A DNA stretch of 64,000 bases from Gemmatimonadota bacterium (lineage in GTDB: Bacteria > Gemmatimonadota > Gemmatimonadetes > Longimicrobiales > Gaopeijiaceae), in the NCBI GenBank assembly GCA_028875075.1, contig JAPPGF010000027.1, positions 1 to 64,000 on the forward strand, given 5' to 3'. The notes beneath the pieces were generated by a model. The model had not been told where the DNA came from, searched no databases, and worked only from the letters and a program-made list of their open reading frames with translations. How positions within the stretch are numbered: position 1 is the first letter of the stretch; the number at the start of each line of letters is the position of its first letter. Positions 35,425 through 53,509 of the stretch are shown in pieces. Both the position numbers and the translations under genes were made by a program.

Positions 35425-35598
35425 ATGTACGTGCAATTCCCCGAGGGCCCGTTTGCAGCCGATTCGCAGCGTCCGACCCAAGAACCTGCCCAACGGCCGG
35501 AGGGTAGCGTGCTTGACACCTGGTCATCGGTCAACTTCCGTTCAGTCGACTCGGCCCGTCGTGTTCTCTCGTCCGTGGAACCTCCTTCGCCAAGATGA
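35425..35598 (+). CDS. small 57-residue protein coupled to the AAA ATPase gene
   Basis: ATG 35425 has a good ribosome site (GGGAG, spacing seven to nine) and the frame ends in TGA overlapping the next ATG (ATGA), so translation is probably coupled. The peptide starts MYVQFPEGPFAADSQ and ends in a Ser/Arg-rich helix (SVDSARRVLSSVEPPSPR). No family recognised. A TTGACA at 35513 inside it could be a second promoter for the ATPase but lacks a good -10. Confidence 0.5.
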   Translation: MYVQFPEGPFAADSQRPTQEPAQRPEGSVLDTWSSVNFRSVDSARRVLSSVEPPSPR

Positions 35599-37046
35599 CC
35601 GAACTGCGCCCGCGCACCCTCGGCGAACTAAAGGCCGCGGGCTACAGGACGCGCACGATAAGGGACGAGATTCGTTCTAACATCGTGCGCAAACTGCACG
35701 CACGGGAACGGCTCTTTCCGGGCATCGAAGGCTACGACGAGACCGTGGTCCCACAGGTTGTCAACGCTCTGCTGGCCCGACACGACTTCATTCTGCTTGG
35801 CCTGCGCGGTCAGGCGAAGAGCAGGATCCTACGCCAGCTCGTGGACTTCCTGGACGAGGAGATTCCCTTTCTGGCGGGCAGTGAGGTCAACGACGATCCG
35901 CTGTGCCCCGTCTCTAAGCACGGACGCACGCTCGTGCTCGAAAAGGGCGACGACGCGCCGATCGAGTGGCTGCAGCGGGACCATCGTTATGTCGAGAAGT
36001 TGGCGACGCCCGATGTCACGATCGCTGACGTAATCGGCGACGTGGATCCGATCAAGGCAGTCCGGGGAGGGCATGTCCTAGCCGACGAATTCACGATCCA
36101 CTTTGGGTTGCTCCCGCGCGCCAACCGCGGGATCTTCGCGCTTAACGAGCTGCCTGACCTCGCGGGCAAGATCCAGGTGGGGCTCTTCAACATCCTGCAG
36201 GAGGGCGATGTGCAGGTGAAGGGCTACCCCATCCGCCTCCCGCTTGACCTTCTGATGGTATTCACAGCCAACCCAGAGGACTACACCTCGCGTGGTAAAA
36301 TCATCACGCCCCTGAAGGATCGGATCGGTGCTGAGATCCGCACGCATTATCCAGAAGCGATCAAGACCGCTATGGAGATCACGCGGCAGGAGTCATGGAT
36401 CACACGCGAGGGATTGCGCGTGGAAATTCCCGACTTTGTGGCCGAGACCGTGGAACGAATTGCGTTCTTGGCGCGTGCGGACAAGCGGGTCGACCAGCGT
36501 TCGGGCGTGAGTCAGCGCATGCCGATCTCGGTGACGGAGAGCATCGTGTCAAACGCCGAGCGCCGTGCGCTCCAGCTCGGAGAGGAACGCGTCGTACCGC
36601 GTATCGGCGACCTCTACGCGACACTTTCCGCCATCACAGGGAAGATGGAACTGGAGTATGAGGGAGAGCTGCATGGCGCTGCCAAGATCGCACGTGAGCT
36701 CATCCAAGCGGCCGCTCAGCGCACCTTCCAAGATCGCGCCGGCGGCACGGATGTCGAGGCAATCGTTCAGTACTTCGAGCAGGGCGGCGCGCTCCAGATC
36801 AGCGAGGATGCCTCGGCTGCGGCTTGTGTTCAGGGGTTCGAGACCGTGCCTGGACTTCTGGAGCTGGTCGAGTCGGTGGGGCTCGCGACCGCATCCGCCT
36901 CCGATGGCACCCGCGCCGCCGCCTGCGAACTGACCTTGGAGGCCCTCGTAGGCCAACGACGTATCAGCCGCACGCGACCCGGTCGCTACGGGCGGGTTCG
37001 CCGCGATGGTCCAACCGGCAAGGGCTTCACGGGATTCGATTCTTAG
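35595..37046 (+). CDS. magnesium-chelatase-like AAA+ ATPase
   Basis: 483 residues, the family of stand-alone ChlI/BchI-like ATPases that also occurs in bacteria without chlorophyll (for example the mycobacterial Rv0958 type). Walker A is GLRGQAKSR, with Ala replacing the usual last Gly; the Walker B region RGIFALNELPDLAGKIQ has Asn-Glu instead of Asp-Glu, as in that subfamily. Sensor region VFTANPEDYTSRGKIITPLK and DRIGAEIRTHYPE follow. Such ATPases work with a VWA partner as a metal-insertion or protein-remodelling machine; the matching VWA gene lies at 39096, separated by a methyltransferase and by mutY on the other strand. Cytoplasmic. Confidence 0.85.
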   Translation: MTELRPRTLGELKAAGYRTRTIRDEIRSNIVRKLHARERLFPGIEGYDETVVPQVVNALLARHDFILLGLRGQAKSRILRQLVDFLDEEIPFLAGSEVNDDPLCPVSKHGRTLVLEKGDDAPIEWLQRDHRYVEKLATPDVTIADVIGDVDPIKAVRGGHVLADEFTIHFGLLPRANRGIFALNELPDLAGKIQVGLFNILQEGDVQVKGYPIRLPLDLLMVFTANPEDYTSRGKIITPLKDRIGAEIRTHYPEAIKTAMEITRQESWITREGLRVEIPDFVAETVERIAFLARADKRVDQRSGVSQRMPISVTESIVSNAERRALQLGEERVVPRIGDLYATLSAITGKMELEYEGELHGAAKIARELIQAAAQRTFQDRAGGTDVEAIVQYFEQGGALQISEDASAAACVQGFETVPGLLELVESVGLATASASDGTRAAACELTLEALVGQRRISRTRPGRYGRVRRDGPTGKGFTGFDS

Positions 37047-37152
37047 AGTTCGTGACAACAATCACACCCTGCACGCCAGTCCGCCCGCCTGATGACCGCC
37101 ACTGCGCCGCCATACTATTCCCCCGGCGCTCGTCCACCGGGCAACACCGACG

Positions 37153-37815
37153 TTGTCTGGCAACGTGAACCGACCCGTGCGCGGTTGGATCTCCCGCTTC
37201 GTCCCGCTCCGCCTCGTCCTTCCTTGGATCTTCTTCTGGAAGGGACCGCGCCGTGCTCTCGCACATCACTACGGTTGGGCACGCACCCTACGCGACAAAA
37301 TACCGCAAGACGCCGCTGGCCAACCGTTGCCGTGGATCTCCTACAGCGCAATCGGGCTGTTGTCGGAGCGGCTGTCATCCAGCCATACCGTCCTCGAGTT
37401 CGGAGCCGGTTACTCGACCCTTTTCTTTGGCGCGCGGGCGCGTCGCGTCGTCTCGATCGAGCATGACGCCGGCTGGATCGCGTGGGTGCGCGCGCGCATC
37501 CCAAGGAACGTTGAGCTGGTGCCGACCCGGCGTGGCCCGGCCGCCGTGTACTGTGCTCCGCTAGCAGGTTTGGACGAGTTCTTCGACGTGATTCTGGTTG
37601 ACGGTCGACATCGGAATGAGGCCTTTGAGAAAGCGCTCGACCACCTGAATCGGAAAGGAGTGATCCTCTTGGACGATAGCCACCGTCCGCGTTACGCCCC
37701 CGCCTTCGCGACTGCTCACGCGGCCGGACTGAAACATCTGCACCTGGAGGGGCACAAGCCGATGAGCGTGGATCTCTACCGAACCACGCTCTTCTACCGT
37801 AGCGAGAATTGCTAG
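37153..37815 (+). CDS. class I SAM-dependent methyltransferase-like protein
   Basis: 220 residues. Motif I VLEFGAGYSTLFFGARARRV, acidic end of strand 2 VVSIEHD, and motif IV-like FFDVILVDGRHRNEAFEKAL followed by KGVILLDDSHRP, typical of the methyltransferase family annotated as FkbM or Methyltransf_24 type. Substrate unknown. It sits 106 bases after the AAA ATPase on the same strand; the N-terminal 30 residues are basic and hydrophobic and may be a membrane-proximal extension. Confidence 0.75.
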   Translation: MSGNVNRPVRGWISRFVPLRLVLPWIFFWKGPRRALAHHYGWARTLRDKIPQDAAGQPLPWISYSAIGLLSERLSSSHTVLEFGAGYSTLFFGARARRVVSIEHDAGWIAWVRARIPRNVELVPTRRGPAAVYCAPLAGLDEFFDVILVDGRHRNEAFEKALDHLNRKGVILLDDSHRPRYAPAFATAHAAGLKHLHLEGHKPMSVDLYRTTLFYRSENC

Positions 37816-37865
37816 GCATCTGAACGGCGGCGATCCAGGGCGCGTCTCGTCGGCTCTCCAGCGGC

Positions 37866-39062
37866 TTACATGTTGCCCGAACGGTCTTCAAGGGCTCTAC
37901 GAATCGGCGGCGAATCATGGGTCCTTTCCGGTTGGCCGCCCTCAAGGCCTGGAGAGCGCTCGATCCATGCAGTGACGGCGCGTGCGATCCTTCGGTACGC
38001 CGCAGCCAGGGCCCGCTCTTCGAGCGCTTCCACCGGAGTCCAGGCGTGCCGCGCCGGAATCCCAACGGGCTCGCGCCAATTCGGTGCGCTTGTGTTCCAG
38101 ACAAACGGACGATAGGTCGCACGGAAATGGGAGTAGGTGTTTCTGAATGGCGGAAGCTCAGTCGGTTGCCGCCGGGGCAGCACACCCGCGGCGCGCGCGG
38201 CTCGCGTGGCGGCTGCGAGCACGGCGCGGCGCGTGCAGCCGGGCAACGGAAGGGTCGCGCTGGGAAAGGCCCATAGACCTCCGAGCAGACCGTCCAACGG
38301 CCTGCGAGCAAGCAATAGCTCGGGACTGCCAGAGTTGCCAGCGCGCAGCAGGACGGCGACCGCGATCTCGCGCTCGGGCAGCACGGAGCGCTGCCGGGGA
38401 CGGGGACGTTCGAGGACGGTCCCGAGCGCGCGTGCACGGCATTGCCGAGCAAGCGGGCATCGCGAACAAGCGGGCTGACCTGCCGTACATACTGTGGAGC
38501 CCAGTTCCATGAGAGCTTGGTTGAAGTCGCCCGGGCGCACAGGATCGACGAGCGCAGCAGCGTATGCGCGCAGCCAGCGAGGCGCTGGATCGGCTTCGTC
38601 AGAGAGCCTTGCCAGCACGCGCCGTGCGTTGCCGTCCACCGCGGGCACGCACTCCCCGAACGCGATGCTCGCCACGGCGCCGGACGTGTACTCGCCGAAA
38701 CCAGGTAGCGCGCGGAGCTCCGCGGCGCGGGCGGGGAGCTTGCCACCCATACGGTCGCGGACTAGCAGGGCCGCGCGGTGCAGGTTGCGGGCGCGAGCGT
38801 AATAGCCCAGGCCTTCCCAAGCCTTGAGCACGTCGTCTAGTGACGCGGACGCTAGTGCCTCCAGGTCCGGGAACCGCTCCATCCAGGCCCGGTAGTACGG
38901 GAGGACCGTGTCCACGCGTGTCTGTTGCAGCATCACTTCCGAAACCCACACTCGGTAGGGATGCAGCTCTCCACGCCACGGTAGGGCCCGGTGGCCAGCG
39001 TCGTAGAACTTCAGTATGTCACGGCGCGTGCGCCGTGTCTCCGCCTCCGACATCTCGGCCAT
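37866..39062 (-). CDS. mutY: A/G-specific adenine DNA glycosylase
   Basis: About 398 residues. Removes adenine opposite 8-oxoguanine. Catalytic Glu in SEVMLQQTRV, HhH with LPGFGEYTSGAVASIAFG, catalytic Asp in AVDGNARRVLARL, the Fe-S cysteines CTAGQPACSRCPLARQC (C-x6-C-x2-C-x5-C), and a C-terminal NUDIX-like recognition domain. Start ATG 39062 (MAEMSEAETRRTRR); ATG 39053 is possible. It is divergent from the VWA gene with only about 33 bases between the two starts. Confidence 0.93.
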   Translation of the reverse strand: MAEMSEAETRRTRRDILKFYDAGHRALPWRGELHPYRVWVSEVMLQQTRVDTVLPYYRAWMERFPDLEALASASLDDVLKAWEGLGYYARARNLHRAALLVRDRMGGKLPARAAELRALPGFGEYTSGAVASIAFGECVPAVDGNARRVLARLSDEADPAPRWLRAYAAALVDPVRPGDFNQALMELGSTVCTAGQPACSRCPLARQCRARALGTVLERPRPRQRSVLPEREIAVAVLLRAGNSGSPELLLARRPLDGLLGGLWAFPSATLPLPGCTRRAVLAAATRAARAAGVLPRRQPTELPPFRNTYSHFRATYRPFVWNTSAPNWREPVGIPARHAWTPVEALEERALAAAYRRIARAVTAWIERSPGLEGGQPERTHDSPPIRRALEDRSGNM

Positions 39063-39095
39063 GGCAAAGCTAAAGTAACCCTCCCTGGAGATCCC

Positions 39096-40415
39096 GTGCG
39101 CTTCACGACCTACACGAAGTACATGGGGACCTGGGCGGACGCTGTTAACCTCCGGTCCCTGCTCGACCACCTTTCCGAGTTTCTCCTAAACGGCGGATTC
39201 GCCGGGGGCCCACACTATCACCCCTATTGGGGCTGGTCCGGAACTGAAGAAGACAAATCGCCGCACGCGCTCAAGCGTGCTCTATTCAAGGCGTTGGTCG
39301 AGACCGGCCAACTCACTCCCGAGATGGTCGAGGAACTCAGTGGGGAGGGCCAGGGCGACGCCGACGTTCAGCAGAGCATCGCCGAGCTGCTCGATCGTTT
39401 GATCGAACTATTGGTCGAGGAGGGATACCTCGCTCCCATCCAGTCCGACTTGCCCACGGTCGCGGGCCCCACCCAGCACGTCACGGGCCAGGGTCAAGTG
39501 AACGACCCCAAACAGGCGGCGCAGCAGGTTCAATTTAGTCCGACCCGCAAAGGCATCGATTTCCTGGGCTACAGTGCGCTCAAGAGGCTGTTGTCGGCGG
39601 CGGGCAGATCCGACCTGGGCTCCCACAGCACGTCACATCTCTCGACTGGCGTGGAAACGGAAGCGGTGAGTCGTCCCTATGAATACGGCGACACAATGAA
39701 TCTTGACATTCCTGCTACGCTTAAGAACGCGCTATCACGCGTTCGGGAGGACAGCGACTACGAAACCGGACTCGAGGGTCCCTGGGCGCTCGATTACAGG
39801 GACCTGATGGTGCATCAGTCTGAGTATCGGTCCTCATGCGCCACGGTCCTGATGCTCGACATATCACACTCGATGGTGCTCTATGGCGAGGATCGCTTTA
39901 CGCCCGCGAAGCAAGTGGCACTCGCTCTTTCTCACCTCATTTGTACCCAGTACCCGGGCGACAGCTTGCGCGTGCTCACCTTCGGTGACCGCGCCGAAGA
40001 GATCCCATTCTCGCACCTCGCCAAGGCGCAGGTAGGGCCTTACCACACGAACACGGCGGAGGGGCTTCAGGTGGCACGACGGATTCTCGCCACCCAGAAG
40101 CAGGACATGCGGCAGATCATCATGATTACCGACGGTAAGCCCAGCGCGGTCACCCTGCCGGACGGCCGCATTTACCAGAACTCCAGCGGAATAGACGGAC
40201 TCATCCTGCGACGCACCTTCCAGGAGGTCGCCGAGTGCCGCAAGGCCGGCATCCTTGTCAACACCTTCATGCTCGCCCGCGATCCGTACCTCGTTAAGTT
40301 TGTTCAGGAAGTGTCGGAGGTCGCCCGGGGGAAGGCGTATTTCACCACGACCATCACCCTCGGCCAGTACATTATGATGGACTTCATGAAGCGGAAGCGT
40401 CGCCACGCCACGTGA
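39096..40415 (+). CDS. VWA-domain protein, partner of the chelatase-like ATPase
   Basis: About 439 residues. The C-terminal half is a von Willebrand A domain with the metal-site motif MLDISHSMVLYGEDRFTPAK (DxSxS), a later Thr in the HTNTAEGL region and the TDGKPS motif. The N-terminal half is helical and acidic, as in VWA partners of ChlI/MoxR-like ATPases. GTG 39096 with GGAG eight bases upstream is preferred; the open frame from 38991 runs into mutY. Probably assembles with the ATPase at 35595, by analogy with ChlI/ChlD; no ChlH-like subunit is present in the window. Confidence 0.85.
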   Translation: MRFTTYTKYMGTWADAVNLRSLLDHLSEFLLNGGFAGGPHYHPYWGWSGTEEDKSPHALKRALFKALVETGQLTPEMVEELSGEGQGDADVQQSIAELLDRLIELLVEEGYLAPIQSDLPTVAGPTQHVTGQGQVNDPKQAAQQVQFSPTRKGIDFLGYSALKRLLSAAGRSDLGSHSTSHLSTGVETEAVSRPYEYGDTMNLDIPATLKNALSRVREDSDYETGLEGPWALDYRDLMVHQSEYRSSCATVLMLDISHSMVLYGEDRFTPAKQVALALSHLICTQYPGDSLRVLTFGDRAEEIPFSHLAKAQVGPYHTNTAEGLQVARRILATQKQDMRQIIMITDGKPSAVTLPDGRIYQNSSGIDGLILRRTFQEVAECRKAGILVNTFMLARDPYLVKFVQEVSEVARGKAYFTTTITLGQYIMMDFMKRKRRHAT

Positions 40416-40750
40416 ACCCGAGTTGGCCACGCCCAGGATCGGTTGCGACGGGGCTCTCGGCTAGCATTGCCAATCCAAGGCCGACATCCGCGCCCCGCCA
40501 GGAGGCAGTTCCCGCGGGACCCGCGAGGCCCGTGTCGTTCGGCGAGACTGTGCGCCTGCAAACGGCTACCGAGCGTAGCGATACCTTGGTAGTGGATGTC
40601 GGCATCCCGTCGTGGCGGCAAATTGGTTCTGGAGGAGTGTGTTCACGAGGAGAGCGGGTGTGGAAACGCGAGCCGACTGCGCAGCCCTCCTCGCCTACAC
40701 AACGGACGGGTAGCGTCACCTCGCGCGCGTCCGTCATGGCGGGAAGCTGA
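40412..40750 (+). CDS. doubtful Pro/Ser/Thr-rich ORF
   Basis: GTG 40412 overlaps the VWA stop (GTGA) and the frame runs 112 codons with high G/C third positions. The product is low-complexity, with only PVSFGETVRLQTATERSDTL looking structured. An antisense frame of similar length exists. If it is not a gene, 40416-40781 is an empty 366-base gap in the operon. Confidence 0.25.
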   Translation: MNPSWPRPGSVATGLSASIANPRPTSAPRQEAVPAGPARPVSFGETVRLQTATERSDTLVVDVGIPSWRQIGSGGVCSRGERVWKREPTAQPSSPTQRTGSVTSRASVMAGS

Positions 40751-40781
40751 CAAGCGTCCTAAATGCCCTGAGCTTTGGATT

Positions 40782-41033
40782 GTGAACGAATTCGAGGAGC
40801 GCACCATCGGCGGTCTGGTCGTGCGCATCGACCGGCTGCTTTGCGTAGGATTCGGCGACTGCATCGCCGAGGTGCCGGACGCCTTGGTATTCGGCGGAGA
40901 GGGTATCGTCACGTTTACCGAGGCCGCCGATGGGTTGGACCGGCAGCAGATCATTTCGGTTTGCGAGGCTTGTCCCGTTGATGCCATCACGGTCTACGAG
41001 AACGGAACGCAAATCGCCCCCCAGAGCGCATGA
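40782..41033 (+). CDS. single-cluster ferredoxin
   Basis: 83 residues from GTG 40782. Cysteine pattern CVGFGDC early and CEACPVDAI late, with the intervening PDALVF, matches small ferredoxins holding one 3Fe-4S or 4Fe-4S cluster (C-x5-C ... C-x3-C; the middle Cys of the first motif is Phe). It overlaps the Mrp-type ATPase gene (ATGA) and probably supplies electrons to a partner in this operon, the radical SAM enzyme being an obvious candidate. Confidence 0.8.
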   Translation: MNEFEERTIGGLVVRIDRLLCVGFGDCIAEVPDALVFGGEGIVTFTEAADGLDRQQIISVCEACPVDAITVYENGTQIAPQSA

Positions 41034-41923
41034 GACGCATACGAACCTACAAGGACGTTGCCGCAGAGGCTGGTGCGGCCGTCGTCACAATTCCCGGACA
41101 GGTGATGGCACAGCGCGAGCGCCTCGCCCGGCGGCTGGCGGACATCGGGGCCGTGGCGGCGATTGCGAGCGGCAAGGGAGGTGTGGGCAAGAGCGCCCTG
41201 ACCGCGAATCTCGCGGTCTCCCTGGGTGCCCACGGACTGCGGGTGGGTGCGCTCGACAGCGACCTTAACGGTCCATCGCTTGCGCGCATGCTCGGAGTCG
41301 TCGGGGCACGGTTCACTGCGGGGGAGAACGGGATGATCCCCCCCATGGGATCCGGTGGAATACGCGTCGTCTCCATGGAACTCTTTCAGGACGGTGCCGA
41401 CGATCCGCTTCGGTGGCGCGGCCCCAAGGGCGAGAGCTGGGCGTGGCGGGGCGTGATCGAGACCGGCACGATACGGGAGCTGCTCTCCGACGTGGCTTGG
41501 GGCAAGCTAGACGTGCTATTCGTGGACGTGGCTCCGGGCACGGACCGCATCGCCAGGCTGCTCGATCTAGTGCCCGATCCCGCGGCGCTACTCCTCGTCA
41601 CAACGCCCTCGGCCATGGCCCGGCGCGTCGTCGCGCGCTCGCTGCGTCTTGCGCGCGAGGCACGGGTTCGCCGAATTGGCCTCGTCGAGAACATGACAAC
41701 TTGGGCCTGCCCGGGCTGCGGAGCCCTCACCGAACTCTACGAGTCGTCTGAGCCGCAGCTCGCCAGCCGTGAGATCGAGTGTTGGGCTGAAGTGCCGTTC
41801 GATCCGAGGCTCGCTCGGAGCACTGACGAGGGCACACCGTTTGTGCTCGCCTATCCGGACGCTCCGGCCGCACGCGCCATCACCGCCCTAGCCACGCGGT
41901 TGAGACGAGAACTCCACTTGTGA
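41030..41923 (+). CDS. Mrp/NBP35-type P-loop ATPase
   Basis: 297 residues. Deviant Walker A GKGGVGKSALTANLA, switch LDSDLNGPSLARMLG, and the C-terminal ENMTTWACPGCG with the CxxC that in ApbC/Mrp binds a bridging Fe-S cluster. Mrp proteins carry Fe-S clusters to apo-enzymes; the fold is shared with BchL. It overlaps its neighbours on both sides (ATGA and GTGA), so it belongs to the ferredoxin/PCP_red operon and may load clusters onto the radical SAM enzyme. Confidence 0.88.
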   Translation: MRRIRTYKDVAAEAGAAVVTIPGQVMAQRERLARRLADIGAVAAIASGKGGVGKSALTANLAVSLGAHGLRVGALDSDLNGPSLARMLGVVGARFTAGENGMIPPMGSGGIRVVSMELFQDGADDPLRWRGPKGESWAWRGVIETGTIRELLSDVAWGKLDVLFVDVAPGTDRIARLLDLVPDPAALLLVTTPSAMARRVVARSLRLAREARVRRIGLVENMTTWACPGCGALTELYESSEPQLASREIECWAEVPFDPRLARSTDEGTPFVLAYPDAPAARAITALATRLRRELHL

Positions 41924-42384
41924 AGTTCCTCTGCGTACCGTGCGACCGGGTGATGGCGTTCGCCGAACGTCACGTTCCTGACGACGGCACATTGACCGTC
42001 GTATTCGGTTGCCCGGGGTGTGGTCGTGAGATGGCGCTGCTCGCTAACCCGTACGAGAGTCAGCTAGTGCGCAGTCTCGGCGTGAAGGTCGGGGGCCGGA
42101 CCGTCCCCGAACAGCCGATGGAACTCATGCGCGGAAGCCTTGAGGGTGGCCGTCCCGAAGCGTTTAACGATAGCACACCTCTAGCCCGCGAGGATGCCGC
42201 GAGCCGTGGCCCAGGACCCGTGTGGAGCCCGGGCGCGCTTGAACGGCTTGAGCGGGTGCCCTCATTCGTACGCGGAATGGTTAAACGCATCTACGTCGAT
42301 TGGGCCCGCCAGCACGGGATCTCGGAGTTTACCCCCGAGGTCATGGACCGGGCACGGAGCGAGCTCGGTCTCGAGGGGATGTAG
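41920..42384 (+). CDS. zinc-ribbon protein with C-terminal PCP_red domain
   Basis: 154 residues. The N-terminus has two cysteine pairs (CVPC and CPGC) forming a probable zinc ribbon. After a linker the last 50 residues (LERLERVPSFVRGMVKRIYV then DWARQHGISEFTPEVMDRAR) match the PCP_red domain, a small helical unit first known from the C-terminus of the B subunit of light-independent protochlorophyllide reductase, where it contacts the tetrapyrrole. GTG start overlaps the Mrp gene. Function unknown; first of three PCP_red proteins in this cluster. Confidence 0.75.
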   Translation: MKFLCVPCDRVMAFAERHVPDDGTLTVVFGCPGCGREMALLANPYESQLVRSLGVKVGGRTVPEQPMELMRGSLEGGRPEAFNDSTPLAREDAASRGPGPVWSPGALERLERVPSFVRGMVKRIYVDWARQHGISEFTPEVMDRARSELGLEGM

Positions 42385-42385
42385 G

Positions 42386-42763
42386 CTGGAGGCGACCCCG
42401 GAGCGGCGGCGCAAGTTCAGGCAGGCAGCCTTCTACTACCTGCACATGGGAGTACTCTACGAGGCTGCGGTCTTCGAGATGGCCCGCCACGGGCTGCTGG
42501 AGGGACGGGGCGGCATCCCCTGGATCTGGCTCCTCGCCGGGGCCGCCATTGTCGTCCTGGTATTCTGGGCCCTCTGGAGCAGGCAGAGCGTCTGGGTGGC
42601 GCGCATCGTCTGGGCCCTCGGCCTGTTTCGCCTGCCGGCCCTAATCGGGGGAGCCTTTTTTCCCGACCCGCAGACGCAGATTGCGACCGATTTCTTCCTC
42701 ATCGCGCTGCTCGTCGTCCTCGGAAATCTCTGGCTACTGGCACGCGCTGGCTGGGATCTCTGA
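42386..42763 (+). CDS. small integral membrane protein
   Basis: About 125 residues with three to four hydrophobic segments (WIWLLAGAAIVVLVFWALW, WALGLFRLPALIGGAFF, FFLIALLVVLGNLWLLARAG). Coding character extends upstream of the first ATG (42446) to a CTG at 42386 that has GAGGGG at good spacing, so a CTG start or ATG 42446 are both possible. No family known to me. It follows the PCP_red gene directly and precedes the promoter region of the next operon. Confidence 0.6.
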   Translation: MEATPERRRKFRQAAFYYLHMGVLYEAAVFEMARHGLLEGRGGIPWIWLLAGAAIVVLVFWALWSRQSVWVARIVWALGLFRLPALIGGAFFPDPQTQIATDFFLIALLVVLGNLWLLARAGWDL

Positions 42764-42794
42764 AGGAATCGCCTCGCGACTCGGGCTAGGATTG

Positions 42795-42824
42795 TTGACG
42801 GGTCCGATCAGGCACCGGTATACT
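42795..42824 (+). promoter_or_regulatory. promoter of the PCP_red/cytochrome operon
   Basis: TTGACG (42795-42800), 18-base spacer, TATACT (42819-42824), in a locally A/T-rich patch that stands out in this G/C-rich window. It predicts a leader of about 280 bases before the gene at 43113. Confidence 0.7.
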
Positions 42825-43112: not shown

Positions 43113-45221
43113 ATGTACCGAGAGGTTTTGGTCCCGGTCGACAACTCCGATCCGTCCCACTGGGCAGTCGACCGCGCCATCGAGCTATGTCGACGCTCCG
43201 CCGGCCGGATAACGGGGAACCACGTCTACGCGGCCCGCCTCCACGACGTCCGCTTTCGGCAGCTTGAGACGGGCCTTCCCGCGCAGTTCCAGACACCGGA
43301 AGAGATCAAGCGTCAGCGCAAGGTCCACGACAAGCTGATTGAGAAGGGCCTGCAGCTCATCTCGGACTCCTTCCTAGACCAGACCGAGCAGCGTTGCCAA
43401 GCGTCGGGCGTGCCGATTACCCGCCAACTGCTTGAGGGGATCAACTACGAGGAGATCGTCCGCGAAGCCAACAGCGGCGCTGGCCGGCTCCCTAGTCTGA
43501 TCGGGTTCGACCCCAACATCACCCACAAGTACGACGGCGGGGATATGGTTAGGAGTGATGTGAGGCTAGGCGCGGACGGCCGTATCGTTGAGGAGGACGA
43601 GGAACAGGACGAGAAACTCGCAGGCTCAAGCGGCCGCCACTACGATCTGATCGCAATCGGCGCCCACGGCATCGGCCGTCAGCCCTACAGTCAGCTGGGC
43701 GGGGTCGCGGCACGTGTTCTCCGCCAAGTCGAGAAGGACATCCTGCTCGTGCGCGACGACCGAACCCTCGAGGGCGGCCGATGGATGGTTTGCGTGGACG
43801 GCTCCTCGTACGCCTACAAGGCGCTGCGAATCGCCCTCGAGCTGGCCGAGGAATACAGCGCGAGACTCTACATATGCAGCGCCTTCGATGTCGAGTACCA
43901 CCACGTGGTCTTTGGCAACATCAAGGATGTGCTCTCCATCCAAGCCTCCAAGATTTTCAAGTTCGAGGAGCAGGAGGAGCTCCACAACAATATCATTGAC
44001 AAAGGCCTGCTAAAGCTGTGCCAGGCCAACTTGAAGCGTGCGCGGGTGATGGCTGAGGCCCATCCCGAGGTCGTGACGGACACGCAAGTCCTCATCGGGA
44101 AGCCGTTCCAGTGTATCCTCCAGTGGGTGCGGGAAATCGACCCGACGCTCCTGATCTTTGCACGCCACGGCGGCCACCGGATTGAGGGCACCGACCTGGG
44201 ATCGCAGGCCGAGAACCTGGTGCGGCTTGCACCAACCAATGTGCTCCTCGTCGGCACCCAGGATGTCCGTCCCGACGAGATTCCTTGGATCGAGGAGGAC
44301 GGCGAGAAGGGCCTGGAGTGGGCCCCGGACGCGGAGGCACGCATTCACCGCGTGCCCCCGTTCGCACTGGGCATCGCGCGCAAGGCGGTCGAAGAGTTCG
44401 TGCTCGACAACTACGGTCCAGGAGCTAACGGCACCTACGCGGAAGACGGGCGCGGAGCCGCCCCGCACGTTGACGGCGTTGCAGGCTCGAACGGCGGAGC
44501 ACGTACAGCTTCGATACCGCCGGTTAGCGCCGACGGGTTTCCCATGGTGACCAACCAGCGCTTGGACGAGGCGATTACGAAACTGCTACCCACCCACATG
44601 CAGTTGATCATGGGAATCGGCACGGCCGAGGAGCTGGCACTGGCCGAGGTGAAGGCCGAGGAGGCGATGAAGCGGACCGCCGTGGAGGGATCGGACGCCG
44701 ACGAGGCGCACGCAATGGTAACGGTGAAGTGCCCCTATACAGGGCAGGTATCCACCCGGGCCCGTACCGAGAAGGATTCGATCGTCTGGACGAACGAAGC
44801 GTTCGAGCGACTTCGCGCAGTCCCGCTCATCGCACGTCCGCTGGCGCGCAACACGGTGGAACGCTTCGCGCGCGAGCGCGGCATGTGGCGGATCACGACG
44901 ATGGTAATGGACGAGAACAAGCAGGCCATGGTCGAGGCGGACGAGTTTGACACCGACACGATGCTCGTGATGTTTCGTGAGCTGCAGACCAAGCAGATCC
45001 AGGCCCAGGCGGAAGGCACGGACGGGCTCACTCCCGAGACGCGACGCTTCATCGAAGAGGCGAAGGCGTCCGGCGTCACCCGCTGTCCCATCCGTGACGT
45101 GGTCGCCAAGGCGGATCAGTGCCCGGTCGACCTCAATACCGTCACGCCCGAGCAGGCGCGCGCCGCCGTGGAGGAGTCCATGAAGCGCGAGCATCGCGAG
45201 CCCGCCGGAACGGGCGATTGA
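43113..45221 (+). CDS. double universal-stress-protein with two PCP_red domains
   Basis: 702 residues. Two Usp domains: residues 1 to about 235, opening LVPVDNSDPSHWAVDRAIEL and closing IGAHGIGRQPYSQLGGVAAR, with a large internal insert; and about 240-400, with VCVDGSSYAYKALRIALELA and the nucleotide-loop-like RHGGHRIEGTDLGSQAENLV. Then two PCP_red-like units, near residues 406-440 (ARIHRVPPFALGIARKAVEE) and 560-600 (FERLRAVPLIARPLARNTVE), and a C-terminal tail with two cysteines (RCPIRDV, QCPVDL). Usp domains bind ATP in many cases; PCP_red suggests contact with a tetrapyrrole. First gene of the cytochrome operon; ATG preceded by GCGAGG. Confidence 0.8.
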   Translation: MYREVLVPVDNSDPSHWAVDRAIELCRRSAGRITGNHVYAARLHDVRFRQLETGLPAQFQTPEEIKRQRKVHDKLIEKGLQLISDSFLDQTEQRCQASGVPITRQLLEGINYEEIVREANSGAGRLPSLIGFDPNITHKYDGGDMVRSDVRLGADGRIVEEDEEQDEKLAGSSGRHYDLIAIGAHGIGRQPYSQLGGVAARVLRQVEKDILLVRDDRTLEGGRWMVCVDGSSYAYKALRIALELAEEYSARLYICSAFDVEYHHVVFGNIKDVLSIQASKIFKFEEQEELHNNIIDKGLLKLCQANLKRARVMAEAHPEVVTDTQVLIGKPFQCILQWVREIDPTLLIFARHGGHRIEGTDLGSQAENLVRLAPTNVLLVGTQDVRPDEIPWIEEDGEKGLEWAPDAEARIHRVPPFALGIARKAVEEFVLDNYGPGANGTYAEDGRGAAPHVDGVAGSNGGARTASIPPVSADGFPMVTNQRLDEAITKLLPTHMQLIMGIGTAEELALAEVKAEEAMKRTAVEGSDADEAHAMVTVKCPYTGQVSTRARTEKDSIVWTNEAFERLRAVPLIARPLARNTVERFARERGMWRITTMVMDENKQAMVEADEFDTDTMLVMFRELQTKQIQAQAEGTDGLTPETRRFIEEAKASGVTRCPIRDVVAKADQCPVDLNTVTPEQARAAVEESMKREHREPAGTGD

Positions 45222-45226
45222 ACCCC

Positions 45227-46612
45227 ATGGCGGTGCCCCCGCTCCGTACTACGGGCGCGCCCTCGGGGCTGCTCGACGTGGCATCCCCTGCGCTGGTGCC
45301 CATGGTAGAACCGGCTGCCGCGACGAACCCACGCACCCGCCTTCCCCACGTGATTGCGTGGAACCTCACCCGCCGCTGCAACCTGGCCTGCGCCCACTGC
45401 TACATTTCGGCTGGCCCTTGGCACTCTGCCGCGGGCGAACTCAACACGTCCACCTGCAAGCGGATCCTCGACGAGGTACTGGAGGTCAACCCCGCCCCGG
45501 TGCTGATCCTGTCGGGAGGCGAGCCCCTGCTCAGAGCGGACCTCGAAGAGCTGGCCGAGCACGCGTCCGCTGGCGGTGCAACAGTGGTGGTTGGCACCAA
45601 CGGAACGCGGCTCACCGAAGCGCGAATCCGCTCACTCATGGCCGTTGGCGTCAAGGGTGTCGCGGTGAGCATCGACTCGCTCGATCAGCGCTATCACGAC
45701 CGCTTCCGACACGGCGAAGGTGCACTCGGCGATACGCTCGCCGCGGTGGAGTGCCTGCGCGCGCGCGGGCTTGACTTCATCGTCCAGACGACGGTCACGC
45801 GCGGCAACCGCGGAGAGCTCGCGGCACTCGCTGCGTGGTCGGCTGAGCACGGTGCAGTGGCATTCAATGTGTACTTCGTGGTACCGACCGGGCGCGGCGA
45901 TCGAATGCGTGCGATGGAGCCGGATGAGAACGACGCGGTGCTACGCGACCTCGTGGGGCTGGAGCGGATCTACCGCGGCCGTATGATGGTGCGTTCCAAG
46001 TGCCAGCCCCAGCTCATGCGTCACGCACTCGCGGGCGATGCCGACTCGCCACTCCTGAACTATGAGACCCGCTGCCCCTGTGGAATTCAGTACTGCCGGA
46101 TCACGCCAGAAGGGAAGGTCACGCCGTGCCCGTACACCCCGGTAACGGCCGGCGACCTCACGAAGGCGTCGTTCGGCGAGATCTGGGACACGTCAGTAGT
46201 CTTCCAGAGCCTCCGCACCGGGGCGCTCGGCGGCAAGTGCGGCCGTTGCGAGTTCCGGGCTGTCTGCGGTGGCTGCCGTGCACGCGCGTACGCCGAGGGC
46301 CACGACCTGTTGGGGCCCGACGAGTCGTGCGCGTACGAGCCCACGGGCCAGGTGCCGCTGATTCAGCGGCGGGCCGTCACGTACGGTACTGCGTTCGAGG
46401 CTGAACTCGACTGGGCGCCCGAGGCTGCGGCACGTCTCAAGGCGATCCCCAGCTTTGTGCGCGGCGTGGTCACGCAGCGCGTTGAGAAGTTCGCGCGGGA
46501 GCGCGGCTACGAGCGTGTCGATCTGGACGTGATGGTGGAGGTGCGGAGGGCGATGCCCGTGGATTTCTCGAAACGGTTGCCGTTTTTCCTGAGCAAGGAC
46601 GGTGAGCGGTGA
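45227..46612 (+). CDS. radical SAM/SPASM enzyme with C-terminal PCP_red domain
   Basis: About 461 residues. The radical SAM cluster motif CNLACAHC is near residue 50; LILSGGEPLL is the SAM-binding GGE motif. A SPASM-type Cys-rich region follows (CPCGIQYC, CPYTPV, CGRCEFRAVCGGCRARAY). This layout is that of the NirJ/AhbC/AhbD group, which edits porphyrin side chains in heme d1 and alternative heme synthesis. The last 60 residues are a PCP_red unit (RLKAIPSFVRGVVTQRVEKF, ARERGYERVDLDVMVEVRRA). The fusion of a heme-biosynthesis-like radical enzyme with a tetrapyrrole-linked domain is the strongest functional clue in the cluster. Start 45227 follows the Usp gene by five bases; the longer frame to 45119 is a shadow. 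Confidence 0.85.
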   Translation: MAVPPLRTTGAPSGLLDVASPALVPMVEPAAATNPRTRLPHVIAWNLTRRCNLACAHCYISAGPWHSAAGELNTSTCKRILDEVLEVNPAPVLILSGGEPLLRADLEELAEHASAGGATVVVGTNGTRLTEARIRSLMAVGVKGVAVSIDSLDQRYHDRFRHGEGALGDTLAAVECLRARGLDFIVQTTVTRGNRGELAALAAWSAEHGAVAFNVYFVVPTGRGDRMRAMEPDENDAVLRDLVGLERIYRGRMMVRSKCQPQLMRHALAGDADSPLLNYETRCPCGIQYCRITPEGKVTPCPYTPVTAGDLTKASFGEIWDTSVVFQSLRTGALGGKCGRCEFRAVCGGCRARAYAEGHDLLGPDESCAYEPTGQVPLIQRRAVTYGTAFEAELDWAPEAAARLKAIPSFVRGVVTQRVEKFARERGYERVDLDVMVEVRRAMPVDFSKRLPFFLSKDGER

Positions 46613-48411
46613 GCCGGGTCACTGGCCAGATCGCGCCCGGCACGGCGCTTGTCGTAGCCGTGTTTGTCGCTGCGGTTCCGATGCCCCTGCTCGCGCAGGC
46701 CGCCGAGGGCACTGTCCAGATGCCCATGTACGGGCAATTCCCATACGGCGGCGCCCGCTTCGCGATCTGGATCGCGGCGCAGGTGCACCTGTTCTTCGCG
46801 GCGTTCGTGCTGGGCGTACCAATGTTCGCGGTGGTCGCCGAAGCCATGGGCATCTTCGGTCAGGAACCCAAGTACGACAAGCTCGCGAAGGAGTTCACGC
46901 GGTTGCTCCTGGTTTCGTACTCGGCAACCGCCATCTGGGGTGCGATCCTCGCGTTCGGGCTGATCACACTCTACCCGGGCGTCTGGAGCTATCTCGCCGA
47001 GATCTTCGCCCCCTCCATGTGGGCGTACGTGGGACTCTTCTTCTTCGAGTCGTTTACCCTGTACCTGTATTACTACGGATGGGAGCGCTGGTCTGTCGGC
47101 GGGGCCAAGCTGGGCCACTGGACGCTGGGCATCCTGCTGAATGTTTGGGGTACAGCTGTGATGTTCATCGCCAACTCCTGGCTCACCTACATGATGAGTC
47201 CGCCCGCCGACGTGACACCCGACACGTCCCCCGCCATGGTGCAGTTCTGGAGCGCCTTCGCGAACGCCACGTGGATGCCGATCAACATCCACCGCGTGAT
47301 TGCCAACATCGTATTCGGTGGCGCCATCGTGGGTGGCTACGCGGCCTATCGTTTCCTCCTGGCCGACAACGACGACGAACGCGCCCATTACGACTGGATG
47401 GGCTATGTCGGCAACCTGATCGCCATCGGCGCGCTCATCGTTCTGCCCTTCGCCGGCTACTACCTAGGCCGCGAGATCTACGAATTCAACCAACAGATGG
47501 GCATCACGATGATGGGCGGCTTCATGAGTTGGCTTTGGATCATCCAAGCCTTTCTCATTGGCGTGCTCTTCCTGGCTGGCAACTACTACCTGTGGGTCGG
47601 TATGGGGCGGATCCCGGGCGCAACGCGCTTCCAGCCCTATACCAAGTGGATGCTGCTGGTGCTGGTAGTGGGCGTCATCGTGTGGGCCACGCCCAACACC
47701 ATGATCGCCGACCGCGCGGAGCTGTCCGCCATGGGCGGATCGCACCACCCGTTTCTGGGCGTGCTAGGGGTGATGAGCGCCAAGAACACCGCCGTCAATT
47801 TGATGATCTTGACTACCTTCCTGTCGTTTCTGCTCTACCGGCGTGCCAACAAGCGCCCGACTGTGACATGGGCGAGAACCGGCACACAGGTGCAGGCCGC
47901 CCTGTTCGTGATCTCTGCGGTGATTGTGCTCTTCTACGGCATCTACGGATACTTCGTCACGGCGATCGTGCGGATCGGCTTCTCGGTCTATCAGGTCCTA
48001 GCGGTCCTTTTCGCTATCATCGCCGTAAGCGCGATCGACATCCGCATGATGCGCCGGGCGGAGAGCTACGGAGCAATCCGCTGGGGACAGATGCCGCCGC
48101 GCTCCCAGTACGCCCTGTTCATCTTGATGGTGACATTTACTTGGCTGATGGGGCTAATGGGGTTCGCGCGCAGCGGCATCCGCCAGCACTGGCATGTGTG
48201 GGAAGTGATGCGTGACACCAGCGAATTCGCGGCCACGCCCCCGCTCGGCTATGCCGCACAGGTGATTAGCATATGTGTGCTGATCTTCCTGGGCCTCGTC
48301 GCGTTGATCTTCTGGGTAGGCGGTCTGGCCGAGAAGCCGATCGTCACTCCTGCCCGCAAGGACGCGCTAATGGGTGGGGAGCACGCCACGGCTGCGGTTG
48401 CGGGCGACTAA
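46609..48411 (+). CDS. CydA-like cytochrome bd-type membrane protein without CydB
   Basis: 600 residues, about 14 hydrophobic segments. The N-terminus RFAIWIAAQVHLFFAAFVLG corresponds to the CydA opening with its heme-ligand His, and WMPINIHRVIANIVFGGAIV to the second heme-ligand His region. Similar bd-like proteins are known from nitrite-oxidising Nitrospira as putative oxidases. No cydB follows; three cytochromes c do. So it may be an electron-transfer membrane subunit rather than a classic quinol oxidase. GTG start overlaps the radical SAM gene (GTGA), implying tightly linked expression. Confidence 0.8.
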   Translation: MSRVTGQIAPGTALVVAVFVAAVPMPLLAQAAEGTVQMPMYGQFPYGGARFAIWIAAQVHLFFAAFVLGVPMFAVVAEAMGIFGQEPKYDKLAKEFTRLLLVSYSATAIWGAILAFGLITLYPGVWSYLAEIFAPSMWAYVGLFFFESFTLYLYYYGWERWSVGGAKLGHWTLGILLNVWGTAVMFIANSWLTYMMSPPADVTPDTSPAMVQFWSAFANATWMPINIHRVIANIVFGGAIVGGYAAYRFLLADNDDERAHYDWMGYVGNLIAIGALIVLPFAGYYLGREIYEFNQQMGITMMGGFMSWLWIIQAFLIGVLFLAGNYYLWVGMGRIPGATRFQPYTKWMLLVLVVGVIVWATPNTMIADRAELSAMGGSHHPFLGVLGVMSAKNTAVNLMILTTFLSFLLYRRANKRPTVTWARTGTQVQAALFVISAVIVLFYGIYGYFVTAIVRIGFSVYQVLAVLFAIIAVSAIDIRMMRRAESYGAIRWGQMPPRSQYALFILMVTFTWLMGLMGFARSGIRQHWHVWEVMRDTSEFAATPPLGYAAQVISICVLIFLGLVALIFWVGGLAEKPIVTPARKDALMGGEHATAAVAGD

Positions 48412-48431
48412 CCGATAGGCTCCCGACGTCC

Positions 48432-49238
48432 ATGTGGAAGACCAACCTAAAGATCATCGGGATCGTGATGGGAACGCTCGCGCTCTACACGATCGTCGCC
48501 AACTCGATCCCGCAGGTCGCCTCGGAGGTGCCTGAAGAGCTGACTTTCACCGACGAGGTCAGCACCGCGGAGCTCGTCGCGGCCGGTGAAGAGCTCTACG
48601 GCGGGGCCGGAGGCTGCACGACCTGCCACGGCACGGGTACGCGCGCGCCGAACCTACTCACGGACCACGCAGGCGAGGGCGCGATCGGGACACGCTGTGG
48701 CGACCGCGTGCCCGGAGAGGTTTGCAGAGTCTACCTATACAATTCTCTGGTCGGGCCGGCGGAGTTCGTCCTGGAGGGTTTCCCCCCCATGGTGTTTCAG
48801 GCCCGTACGTTCTCGGACGCACAGTTGTGGGCGTTGGTCGCGTACATGGAATCCCAGGGAGGGGAGGTGACGGTCACGGCAGACGACATCGCGGCCTCAG
48901 CCGACCCCGGCCAGTCGACGGCCGCAGCGGCGACCGAGTCTCCCGCCGGGGCGGCGGCGGTCGCGAGTACGACGACCGACGTGGCCATGCTGCTCCAAGA
49001 ACAGCTTTGCCTAGGCTGCCACGCCATCGACGGCGCTGGACCACCGCTCGGGCCGAGTTTCGACGGCATCGGCGGACGCCTCACGGCCCCCGAGATCCGC
49101 GCCGCGATCTTGGAACCGAACGCGGGCGCCGCTCCGGGCTACGAGGCCATGATCGGTGTCATGCCCACGACCTACGGCCAAGCGTTCACTGCGGCCCAAC
49201 TCGAGGCCGTCGTCTCGTTCCTGGCCGGCCGGAACTGA
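48432..49238 (+). CDS. membrane-anchored diheme cytochrome c
   Basis: 268 residues from ATG 48432: one N-terminal anchor (IIGIVMGTLALYTIVANSI) and two cytochrome c domains with CTTCH and CLGCH, joined by an Ala/Thr-rich linker. Extra cysteines CGDRVPGEVC lie in the first domain. Periplasmic electron carrier associated with the bd-like protein just upstream (20 bases). Confidence 0.88.
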   Translation: MWKTNLKIIGIVMGTLALYTIVANSIPQVASEVPEELTFTDEVSTAELVAAGEELYGGAGGCTTCHGTGTRAPNLLTDHAGEGAIGTRCGDRVPGEVCRVYLYNSLVGPAEFVLEGFPPMVFQARTFSDAQLWALVAYMESQGGEVTVTADDIAASADPGQSTAAAATESPAGAAAVASTTTDVAMLLQEQLCLGCHAIDGAGPPLGPSFDGIGGRLTAPEIRAAILEPNAGAAPGYEAMIGVMPTTYGQAFTAAQLEAVVSFLAGRN

Positions 49239-49249
49239 GGGAGGACCCG

Positions 49250-50053
49250 GTGAGACTTTGGCCGAGCGAACCCTTCGGGCAGACGGTCGCGATCCTCGCG
49301 ATCGCCTATCTGCTGATCGAGCTAGGTATTCCCTACATCCCGCCGCTGTTCGGGCTTGCGAGCGCTCCGGCCCCCGACAGCGTGGTCTTCCAATACATGT
49401 TGACGGTGCTGATGGGTGTTCTGATCTGGGTGAGCGACAACGAGGAGCGGTGGCGTGCGTTCAAGCGTCCAATACAGCGCGTCTTGGTCGAAGAGAAACG
49501 TAAACCGATCCGCGTTGCACTCCTTGTGTTGGTGCCGGTATTGGTGGCATTTATCGCCTTCGACCAGGCTCGTCCTTCTCTTTCGGCTCCACCGTCCTTC
49601 CGCGCCATCCACCCGGCGCCTCCCGGCTCGATGACCTTCCGTGACCGGACGATCCCGATCACCGGACTAGAGAACCCGCTGCGTCACGAGGGTCGTCTCG
49701 AAGCGCACTACGAAGAGGGAAAGCGGATTTACTACCGCAACTGCCTTGTCTGTCACGGAGACCTCTTGGACGGTCAGGGCCCCTACGGGCCGGCCTTCAA
49801 TCCCGCCCCGCTCAGTTTCCAGGACGTGGGCACCATTCAGCAGCTCACCGAGAGCTACGTGTTCTGGCGGATCGCCAAGGGCGGAGCGGGGCTGCCCAAC
49901 GAGGGCGGGCCGTGGAACTCGGCCATGCCCGCATGGGAAGAGTTTCTGACCGAGGACGAGATATGGACGGTGATCATCTTCCTCTACGAGCAGGCGGACA
50001 AGACACCGCGCACATGGGAAGAAGTCGCCGGATCGGAAGGAGGTCCCCAGTGA
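49250..50053 (+). CDS. membrane-bound monoheme cytochrome c
   Basis: 267 residues from GTG 49250, with a strong ribosome site GGGAGG. Two to three membrane segments in the first 115 residues (TVAILAIAYLLIELGIPYI, YMLTVLMGVLIWVSDN, VALLVLVPVLVAFIAF), then a periplasmic cytochrome c domain with CLVCHGDLLDGQGPYGPAF and a probable distal Met in AMPAWEEFL. Overlaps the next gene (GTGA). Confidence 0.87.
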   Translation: MRLWPSEPFGQTVAILAIAYLLIELGIPYIPPLFGLASAPAPDSVVFQYMLTVLMGVLIWVSDNEERWRAFKRPIQRVLVEEKRKPIRVALLVLVPVLVAFIAFDQARPSLSAPPSFRAIHPAPPGSMTFRDRTIPITGLENPLRHEGRLEAHYEEGKRIYYRNCLVCHGDLLDGQGPYGPAFNPAPLSFQDVGTIQQLTESYVFWRIAKGGAGLPNEGGPWNSAMPAWEEFLTEDEIWTVIIFLYEQADKTPRTWEEVAGSEGGPQ

Positions 50054-51651
50054 CGCGCACGATTCTGCTGGCAGTCCCGGTGCTTGCGCTTGCGTCACTC
50101 TCGACGACCGCTGCCTCGGCTGACGCCCAGGACCAGGAGCTCTCGCTCGGCAAGGATGTCTACGATCGCTGGTGCGCGGGCTGCCACGGCGTGGACGGCG
50201 CTGGGGCCGGGCCCGGCGCCGCAACAATGCTACCGCGCCCGCGTGACTTCACACGGGCGCAGTATCAAGTCCGCACGACCGGCACCGGCGAGTTGCCGAC
50301 CGACGCGGACATTATGCACGTCATAGACGTGGGGATGCCAGGAACGGCGATGCCCGGATGGGAGGATGCACTTAGCCGTGATGAGCGCGAGGCGTTGGTG
50401 GCGTATCTTAAGAGTTTCTCGCGCTTCTTCGAGAGCGGTCCAGAGCCGACCCCGCTCGAGTTCGGTAGCGCCCCGAGCAGCAGTGAGGCGACCATCACGG
50501 AGGGAGCGAGACTTTATCAGGAGATCGAGTGCTGGCAGTGCCACGGGCAGGCGGGGCGCGGGGACGGCAGCGCCGCAGCCACGCTCGACGACGACCTTGG
50601 GTTTCCCAACTACGCGGCCGACCTGACGCGGAACTGGCTGTTTAACGGAGGCGGCGCGGTCGAGGACATCTACCGCGTCCTCCGCACGGGCCTGGACGGC
50701 ACACCGATGCCCACGTTCAGCGACCTTATAGAGTCGGACATTGTCACTGATGATCAGCTCTGGAGCCTAGCGCACTACGTCAGGAGCCTGTCCCCCGCCC
50801 GGGCACCCGCGGTGCGCGAGGTGATCACGGCGACGCTTGACGAATCGGAGCTGCCGTCGACGCCGGATGACGAGCGGTGGGCCAGTGTCCAGCCGTTCTA
50901 TGTGCCGCTCGCTGGGCAAGTCATCGTCAAGCCGCGCTGGTTCTCACCACGTGTGACGAACATCTGGGTGCGTGCGCTCCACGACGGCGAAGATGTGGTG
51001 CTCCTCGTGAGCTGGACCGATCCAACGCAAAGCCCCAGCTCGGACCCCGACTGGGCGAGCTTCGCACAGCGTGTGGTCGATACCATGGAGCCCAAGGACG
51101 AAGGATCGACCTGGGAGCCGGGCGCTCCCGATCGCCTCGTGGTGCAGTTTCCACAGACGCTCCCCTCGGGGCTCGAGCGTCCGCATTTCCTGCAGGGGGA
51201 CGCCCGCCGCCCGGCCTATCTCTGGAGCTGGAGCAGCGAGGAGGATCGGGCGGTGGAGATGGTGGCGGAGGGACTGGCGACCGGCCAGCAACAGCCGGAC
51301 GAGAACCAGCAGCTGAGCGCCGTCTCGACCTGGTCGGAGGGCGAGTGGCGCGTCCTGTTTCGACGTCCGCTCATGACGCCGGACATTGCCGCCGATCTTC
51401 AGTTACCCTTGGCGACTGCGGTCCCGATCGCGTTCCAAGCGTGGGACGGCGACAACGGTGAGGCCGGCAAGCAGAACGCAGTCAGCACATGGTACTTCTT
51501 GGCGCTCGAGGAAGCGACTCCGGCCACCGTGTTCATGGCGCCCGTTGCAGCGTTCGTGTTAACCGCGGCCTTCGGGCTAGGTGTCGTCGCGCGCGCCCAG
51601 AGGCGATACACGGAAGCGGAAGAGCGAGCCGGCCAGGCCGGCGGCGCATAG
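50050..51651 (+). CDS. diheme cytochrome c fused to an ethylbenzene-dehydrogenase-type heme-binding domain
   Basis: 533 residues. Signal peptide (ILLAVPVLALASLSTTAASA), two cytochrome c domains (CAGCHG and CWQCHG), then an EB_dh domain such as in the heme b-binding gamma subunits of DMSO-reductase-family enzymes (VTNIWVRALHDGEDVVLLVS, then DRLVVQFPQTLPSGLERPHF and LQGDARRPAYLWSW), and a C-terminal membrane helix. It could carry two c hemes and one b heme in the periplasm. No catalytic molybdoenzyme subunit is in the cluster. Confidence 0.85.
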   Translation: MTRTILLAVPVLALASLSTTAASADAQDQELSLGKDVYDRWCAGCHGVDGAGAGPGAATMLPRPRDFTRAQYQVRTTGTGELPTDADIMHVIDVGMPGTAMPGWEDALSRDEREALVAYLKSFSRFFESGPEPTPLEFGSAPSSSEATITEGARLYQEIECWQCHGQAGRGDGSAAATLDDDLGFPNYAADLTRNWLFNGGGAVEDIYRVLRTGLDGTPMPTFSDLIESDIVTDDQLWSLAHYVRSLSPARAPAVREVITATLDESELPSTPDDERWASVQPFYVPLAGQVIVKPRWFSPRVTNIWVRALHDGEDVVLLVSWTDPTQSPSSDPDWASFAQRVVDTMEPKDEGSTWEPGAPDRLVVQFPQTLPSGLERPHFLQGDARRPAYLWSWSSEEDRAVEMVAEGLATGQQQPDENQQLSAVSTWSEGEWRVLFRRPLMTPDIAADLQLPLATAVPIAFQAWDGDNGEAGKQNAVSTWYFLALEEATPATVFMAPVAAFVLTAAFGLGVVARAQRRYTEAEERAGQAGGA

Positions 51652-53476: not shown

Positions 53477-53509
53477 GCGGCCACGGCTAGAACCGCAACG
53501 AGGAAGGCA

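Follow-up and report, generated by a model that had tools for sequence, protein, structure and literature searches.

Why would a bacterium carry three proteins with PCP_red, a domain known as the C-terminal tail of the BchB/ChlB subunit of protochlorophyllide reductase, in the same run of genes as a respiratory complex built around a relative of cytochrome bd subunit I (CydA)? The question is raised by a 64,000-nucleotide stretch of Gemmatimonadota DNA (contig JAPPGF010000027.1; hereafter the window), which belongs to a metagenome-assembled genome (MAG) of 2.6 Mb that is 91.6% complete. We find that a cassette encoding a ferredoxin, an Mrp-type ATPase and the three PCP_red proteins, one of them a radical S-adenosylmethionine (SAM) enzyme, is a near-obligate partner of this bd-like complex in at least five phyla, anammox bacteria included. 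The pairing of the PCP_red/radical SAM cassette with the complex across phyla appears to be a new result, as a literature search whose scope left out many subscription papers found no prior report linking PCP_red to bd-like oxidases. The genes of the cassette and the complex are arranged as follows:

40782 to 41033, + strand: single-cluster ferredoxin (Fer4_15/Fer4_13); start uncertain, the first ATG being at 40596 and the conserved part running from about 40782
41030 to 41923, + strand: P-loop ATPase of the Mrp/ApbC/NUBPL type, an iron-sulfur carrier family (Mrp/NUBPL match, E 1.5e-61); kept in the cassette across phyla
41920 to 42384, + strand: PCP1, an N-terminal CxxC...CxxC ribbon (Cys5, Cys8, Cys31, Cys34) followed by a C-terminal PCP_red domain (profile match)
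42388 to 42763, + strand: orfX, a small membrane protein of about three transmembrane helices, of no assigned family; start uncertain; adjoins PCP1 in relatives too
43113 to 45221, + strand: UspPCP, a pair of universal-stress (Usp) domains followed by a partial and a full PCP_red (profile match)
45227 to 46612, + strand: radical SAM (CxxxCxxC) enzyme with a seven-Cys SPASM domain and a C-terminal PCP_red; nearest families NirJ2 and AhbD
46609 to 48411, + strand: CydA-like (bd-like, OR-N type) membrane protein of 600 residues (PF01654, E 8e-19)
48432 to 49238, + strand: c2, a membrane-anchored diheme cytochrome c homologous to anammox Kustd1711 (PDB 7zs0, E 9e-17)
49250 to 50053, + strand: TMc, three predicted transmembrane helices and a monoheme cytochrome c
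50050 to 51651, + strand: c2EB (alternative NxrC), a diheme cytochrome c with an EB_dh/NxrC-type heme b domain and a transmembrane helix
51827 to 52708, + strand: cup, an exported carboxypeptidase-regulatory/cupredoxin-like protein kept in the cluster

The starts at 41030, 41920, 46609 and 50050 overlap the preceding stop, which gives the locus an operon-like arrangement. A first-pass annotation had named the ferredoxin, the Mrp ATPase, the CydA-like protein and at least five c- or b-type heme sites, and all of these are confirmed, the heme sites downstream of the CydA-like gene amounting to five CXXCH motifs and one EB_dh heme b domain.

The identity of the PCP_red domains is the first point to settle. 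Searching the genome with the Pfam profile PF08369 (gathering cut-off 32.5 bits) returned matches at 42223-42357 (46 bits), 44787-44921 (45.9 bits) and 46412-46543 (58.6 bits), together with a partial copy at 44319-44402 that, at 27 bits, falls under the cut-off; scored as proteins, the domains reach 43.7 to 61.8 bits, and the profile found no further copies elsewhere in the 2.6 Mb genome. Because Synechococcus alone gave a match among 14 control genomes, the matches in the window stand well above chance. Comparison with solved structures also pairs the stretch with the domain at the C-terminus of BchB/ChlB (2xdq, 2kru, 3aek), and it shares with that domain and with the stand-alone protein Asr4154 (PDB 2l09) a conserved pattern of W, A, P, F, R and G. 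The earlier assignment of PCP_red to three proteins, and its equation with the tail of BchB/ChlB, thus hold. Unlike BchB/ChlB, the cassette has neither the nitrogenase-like part nor BchN, its PCP_red domains are fused to Usp, ribbon and radical SAM domains, and its hosts are non-phototrophs. A light-independent protochlorophyllide reductase (BchLNB) is ruled out, since these other domains replace the nitrogenase-like BchB/BchN, as is the reading of Mrp as BchL (17 bits against a cut-off of 345). PCP_red is instead a common module of several otherwise unrelated proteins. Further contexts occur in Methylomirabilota and Rokubacteria, where proteins of about 240-270 residues consist only of three PCP_red domains and lie mostly distant from the bd-like gene (L217:9298-10038, L219:2411-3205, L200:7498-8295, L215:3572-4354), and where a UspPCP of Rokubacteria (L202:6044-8200) carries a rubredoxin-like (RUBY_RBDX) motif between its PCP_red domains.

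Does the cassette travel with the bd-like gene? The first-pass annotation had named this as the check to make, and the answer is yes. Whole genomes were sampled from Gemmatimonadota relatives (n = 59), from the phylum of an NC10/Methylomirabilota genome, G059 (n = 79), and from the order of a Scalindua genome (n = 59), with bd-like presence scored at more than 40% identity or, in the anammox-order sample, by a strong match to the alignment. Both parts were present in 24 Gemmatimonadota genomes, with one bd-only genome, three PCP_red-only genomes and 31 having neither; the corresponding counts were 50, 0, 6 and 23 in the phylum of G059 and 48, 1, 0 and 10 in the Scalindua order. Pooled over 197 genomes, 122 have both, 2 the bd-like gene only, 9 PCP_red only and 64 neither (phi 0.88). 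The genomes within each sample are related, so Fisher values overstate their independence; the pattern nevertheless repeats in three separate clades, each with members that have neither part. The two bd-only exceptions are a genome 60% complete (G032) and one with a bd fragment only (G184). Among the PCP_red-only exceptions, G011 and G029 have bacteriochlorophyll synthesis genes, with PCP_red lying within them, and most of the other seven have short contigs that bear cassette, cox1, cup or c2EB genes. Bacteriochlorophyll genes with BchB/BchZ-type PCP_red occur among the Gemmatimonadota relatives at L223 (G029), L224 (G011) and L225 (G019), and G019 holds photosynthetic genes and the cassette together. 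A separate scan placed relatives of the bd-like protein in Methylomirabilota and Rokubacteria, Planctomycetota (Scalindua), Myxococcota and Chloroflexi; all 16 of the non-Gemmatimonadota bd-like genomes checked have PCP_red, usually as UspPCP, radical SAM-PCP and PCP1 with Mrp.

The link extends to gene order, which was counted in 64 Gemmatimonadota-type loci. Of the 58 that have enough sequence, 57 carry the radical SAM gene immediately upstream of the bd-like gene (54 by automatic count plus three with an overlapping start); UspPCP lies upstream in 49/49 and PCP1 in 38/40, and a diheme cytochrome c follows downstream in 56/56. In Scalindua the run at L196 reads cup, bd-like, diheme, monoheme, diheme-EB_dh, tetraheme and monoheme cytochromes, with UspPCP last, and the published order of Kuenenia kustd1713 to kustd1706 is identical, kustd1706 being called UspA (PMC6423088). 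An ABC-2 type exporter (a DrrA-like ATPase and a permease), which could move a cofactor or a lipid, sits between PCP1 and UspPCP in many relatives (L065:14054-15699, with equivalents in L069, L070, L071, L074, L076, L078, L081 and L082) and the window's locus lacks it. Some loci hold a further bd-like paralogue, which is longer, has extra helices (about 46% identity) and comes with its own cytochromes (L066:16245-18245, L058:394-2403 and L196:10424-12466); next to the Scalindua copy lie the PCP_red cassette and a gene for an octaheme cytochrome c (L196:6583-9444). On either side of the system in the window lie further genes:

35595 to 40415: chromosomal neighbours outside the system, namely an AAA ATPase (35595-37046), a methyltransferase, mutY (-) and a VWA protein from about 39105
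52805 to 55309, + strand: a pair of heme-copper oxidase genes, COX2 and COX1, that accompanies the cluster in Gemmatimonadota and Rokubacteria

The heme-copper oxidase was rejected as a constant partner, since several other loci, Scalindua among them, showed no cox1 next to the bd-like gene; in Rokubacteria, a set of Usp, radical SAM and Mrp genes is often near cox1 of the same cluster.

The upstream border of the system bears on a different proposal, that the AAA and VWA proteins are ChlI-like and ChlD-like members of it and insert a metal into the tetrapyrrole. Their proximity in the window and a faint similarity to ChlI, ChlD and cobaltochelatase speak for this: the AAA protein scores 33 bits with chelatase models and the VWA protein 23 bits with a cobaltochelatase model, both remote matches against NCBIfam cut-offs of 467-779. 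The two genes are separated by the methyltransferase gene and the divergent mutY gene. The AAA gene is widespread in the order: 51 of 59 relatives have it (62 to 80% identity), whether they carry the cassette or lack it, and no copy was found in G016, a cassette carrier. In the roughly 10 kb leading up to the bd-like gene, AAA is found in 0/37 other loci and VWA in 3/37. Because the pair are not constant neighbours of the bd-like gene and match chelatases only remotely, we exclude them from the system and regard metal insertion by them as almost certainly incorrect. The system that the first-pass annotation perceived is real, with its border set too far upstream and its membrane half not recognised as a known cluster. 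Upstream of the AAA gene, a 288-residue open reading frame (34083-34949, -) has no Pfam match.

That membrane half is, judged from gene order and homology, the bd-like/alternative-NxrC (OR-N) cluster of anammox and nitrite-oxidising bacteria (PMC3578206, PMC6606698), because the order in Scalindua agrees with that in Kuenenia and c2 of the window matches Kustd1711, whose hemes have potentials near +350 mV (PMC11791136). In Nitrospira, Nitrospina and Kuenenia the cluster has, as in the window, a CydA-like protein without a quinol site (OR-N type CydA; PMC3578206, PMC6606698, PMC10839748, PMC6423088), followed in identical order by a diheme c homologous to Kustd1711, a monoheme c, an alternative NxrC with two c hemes and EB_dh, and a cupredoxin-like protein; a UspA gene is also present in the Kuenenia cluster (PMC6423088). 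The window differs in placing the complex in Gemmatimonadota, with heme-copper oxidase genes adjoining, and the accessible portions of the published accounts do not describe PCP_red, the radical SAM-PCP enzyme or a maturation cassette.

The bd-like protein itself combines the core of CydA with an altered heme pocket. In a profile comparison with canonical CydA of the same order, residues 49-303 align (probability 98.8), the match ending near residue 300 with none in the region of the quinol loop (Q-loop); a match limited to the N-terminal half is likewise reported for a published bd-like oxidase (PMC3578206). An AlphaFold model from 11 sequences was poor, whereas a second, from 37, was usable (predicted local distance difference test, pLDDT, 80; predicted template modelling score, pTM, 0.81), and its ten best Foldseek matches are all cytochrome bd subunit I. 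The protein thus shares with canonical CydA its fold and, invariant in the 81 bd-like proteins from which conservation was taken, the equivalents of His19, Glu107 and His186 (His60, Glu147, His228); with the missing quinol-loop match and the cytochrome and cupredoxin-like neighbours, these are the features expected of an OR-N/bd-like protein. It departs from CydA in its extra helices, in the lack of CydB in the locus and in two substitutions. The position of CydA Glu99, which we take to be a heme ligand from published bd structures, is Tyr140 in 81/81 proteins, and the counterpart of Met393 is Asn393 in 81/81, in a C-terminal half whose alignment to CydA is uncertain. Met389, His380, Lys392 and His529 are also invariant.

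What, then, might the radical SAM-PCP enzyme act on? Members keep the CxxxCxxC motif and seven SPASM cysteines across phyla, as expected of the radical SAM/SPASM superfamily, and the PCP_red tail is present in 14/14 aligned members. When five members from several phyla were scanned with NCBIfam models, NirJ2 (three members) or AhbD (two) ranked first in every case, with 308-348 bits for the best and never less than 270 (280 and 270 bits for the window enzyme), well above the MftC and PqqE models; the best models of other known substrates reached about 140-175 bits, with TIGR04053, of unknown function, in between at 240-285. The side chains of porphyrins are what NirJ, AhbC and AhbD modify (PMC7242693). 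The earlier label of NirJ/Ahb-like therefore survives as nearest family, though not as membership, since the members stay under the cut-offs of those families; the cassette enzyme also differs from NirJ2 and AhbD in its C-terminal PCP_red and in lying outside any heme d1 or siroheme gene set. The ranking points to a tetrapyrrole substrate, although the full SPASM pattern also fits a peptide.

One version of a tetrapyrrole substrate concerns ordinary heme: as a coproheme decarboxylase of the AhbD type, the enzyme would be the cell's anaerobic source of heme b. In each member scanned AhbD ranks first or second among the families, and no ferrochelatase match was found in the window's genome, an absence that raised the idea of the cassette as a general heme pathway and probably reflects a piece missing from this 92% complete MAG. 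Ferrochelatase is present in both same-genus relatives and in almost all cassette genomes (as a fragment only in G057), and HemQ/ChdC occurs in the window's genome, in the majority of relatives that have the cassette and in many that do not. The cassette thus adds to heme b synthesis rather than replacing it, and we rejected the general pathway, holding an AhbD-type role in ordinary heme synthesis to be very improbable.

We propose instead that the cassette (ferredoxin, Mrp, PCP1, UspPCP and radical SAM-PCP) is a dedicated maturation module for the bd-like complex, which in this broad sense we consider likely; to the full version, the most economical mechanism, in which the module binds, edits and delivers a tetrapyrrole for the complex, we assign a rough probability of 0.48. 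The genes, their domain identities, their near-absolute genomic link and the invariant pocket substitution are observations, and from these genomic data we infer what the ligand is, how it is altered, which proteins carry it and which subunit receives it, in a series of steps:

(i) The PCP_red domains would bind an iron-tetrapyrrole and serve as the docking sites through which the cassette proteins meet.

(ii) The radical SAM-PCP enzyme would edit a side chain of the tetrapyrrole by NirJ/AhbD-type chemistry, with electrons from the ferredoxin and iron-sulfur clusters from Mrp.

(iii) UspPCP and PCP1 may then bring the product to the membrane, where it would fill the altered heme pocket of the bd-like subunit, with Tyr140 in place of the CydA ligand Glu99.

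Several points weigh against this proposal. Tetrapyrrole binding is itself read from the genes, and the alignment of PCP_red holds no invariant His or Cys able to ligate a metal. The five members scanned fall short of every NCBIfam cut-off, including the 500 bits set for AhbD (TIGR04545, 270-327) and NirJ2 (TIGR04055, 280-348), and their full seven-Cys SPASM pattern is common in peptide-modifying enzymes. The link is genomic, and in a complex with several heme subunits the target could be another one; the change from Glu to Tyr could also suit ordinary heme b. Some of the same facts would fit a peptide maturase that modifies a residue of the bd-like or another subunit, for instance by a crosslink near the heme pocket, with PCP_red serving only for docking: the typical SPASM domain, the missing metal ligand in PCP_red, the spread of PCP_red over otherwise unrelated proteins, and the many invariant Tyr, His and Lys residues of the bd-like protein. 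On the other hand, characterised PCP_red proteins all act on tetrapyrroles, and the tetrapyrrole side-chain enzymes NirJ2 and AhbD score highest in all five members, so that we judge a peptide maturase rather unlikely.

UspPCP suggests yet another role, as an ATP- and/or heme-binding sensor that tunes the complex, the cassette then being a regulatory or stress module and not a maturase. Usp domains usually have to do with stress, UspA is the name given to kustd1706 of the anammox nxr cluster (PMC6423088), and five histidines (37, 44, 72, 263 and 291), invariant or nearly so in 90 UspPCP proteins, could bind a ligand. Some of these histidines are paired between the Usp halves, and they are a possible metal or heme site. 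Cys-Pro heme-regulatory motifs were also considered in UspPCP and PCP1; they are present in the window's UspPCP, are not kept across phyla and were dropped. The constant presence of radical SAM and Mrp, with a ferredoxin in many loci, argues for chemistry rather than sensing, and a purely regulatory cassette seems to us improbable.

The genes of the bd-like/alternative-NxrC complex are part of the anammox nitrite oxidoreductase cluster and occur in nitrite oxidisers (PMC6423088, PMC3578206), with an oxidase or a reverse-electron-transport complex as candidate roles, and a near-obligate cofactor cassette offers a handle on what sets the hemes of this complex apart. The pairing also explains why PCP_red is found in so many non-photosynthetic genomes. 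In its most specific and doubtful form, which we advance tentatively, the proposal is that the cassette makes an undescribed, side-chain-edited heme for the Tyr pocket of bd-like complexes in anammox bacteria, Gemmatimonadota, Methylomirabilota/Rokubacteria and others. The cassette predicts a pigment to seek in existing anammox biomass; if true, a central respiratory complex of the nitrogen cycle would use a pigment that has not yet been described.

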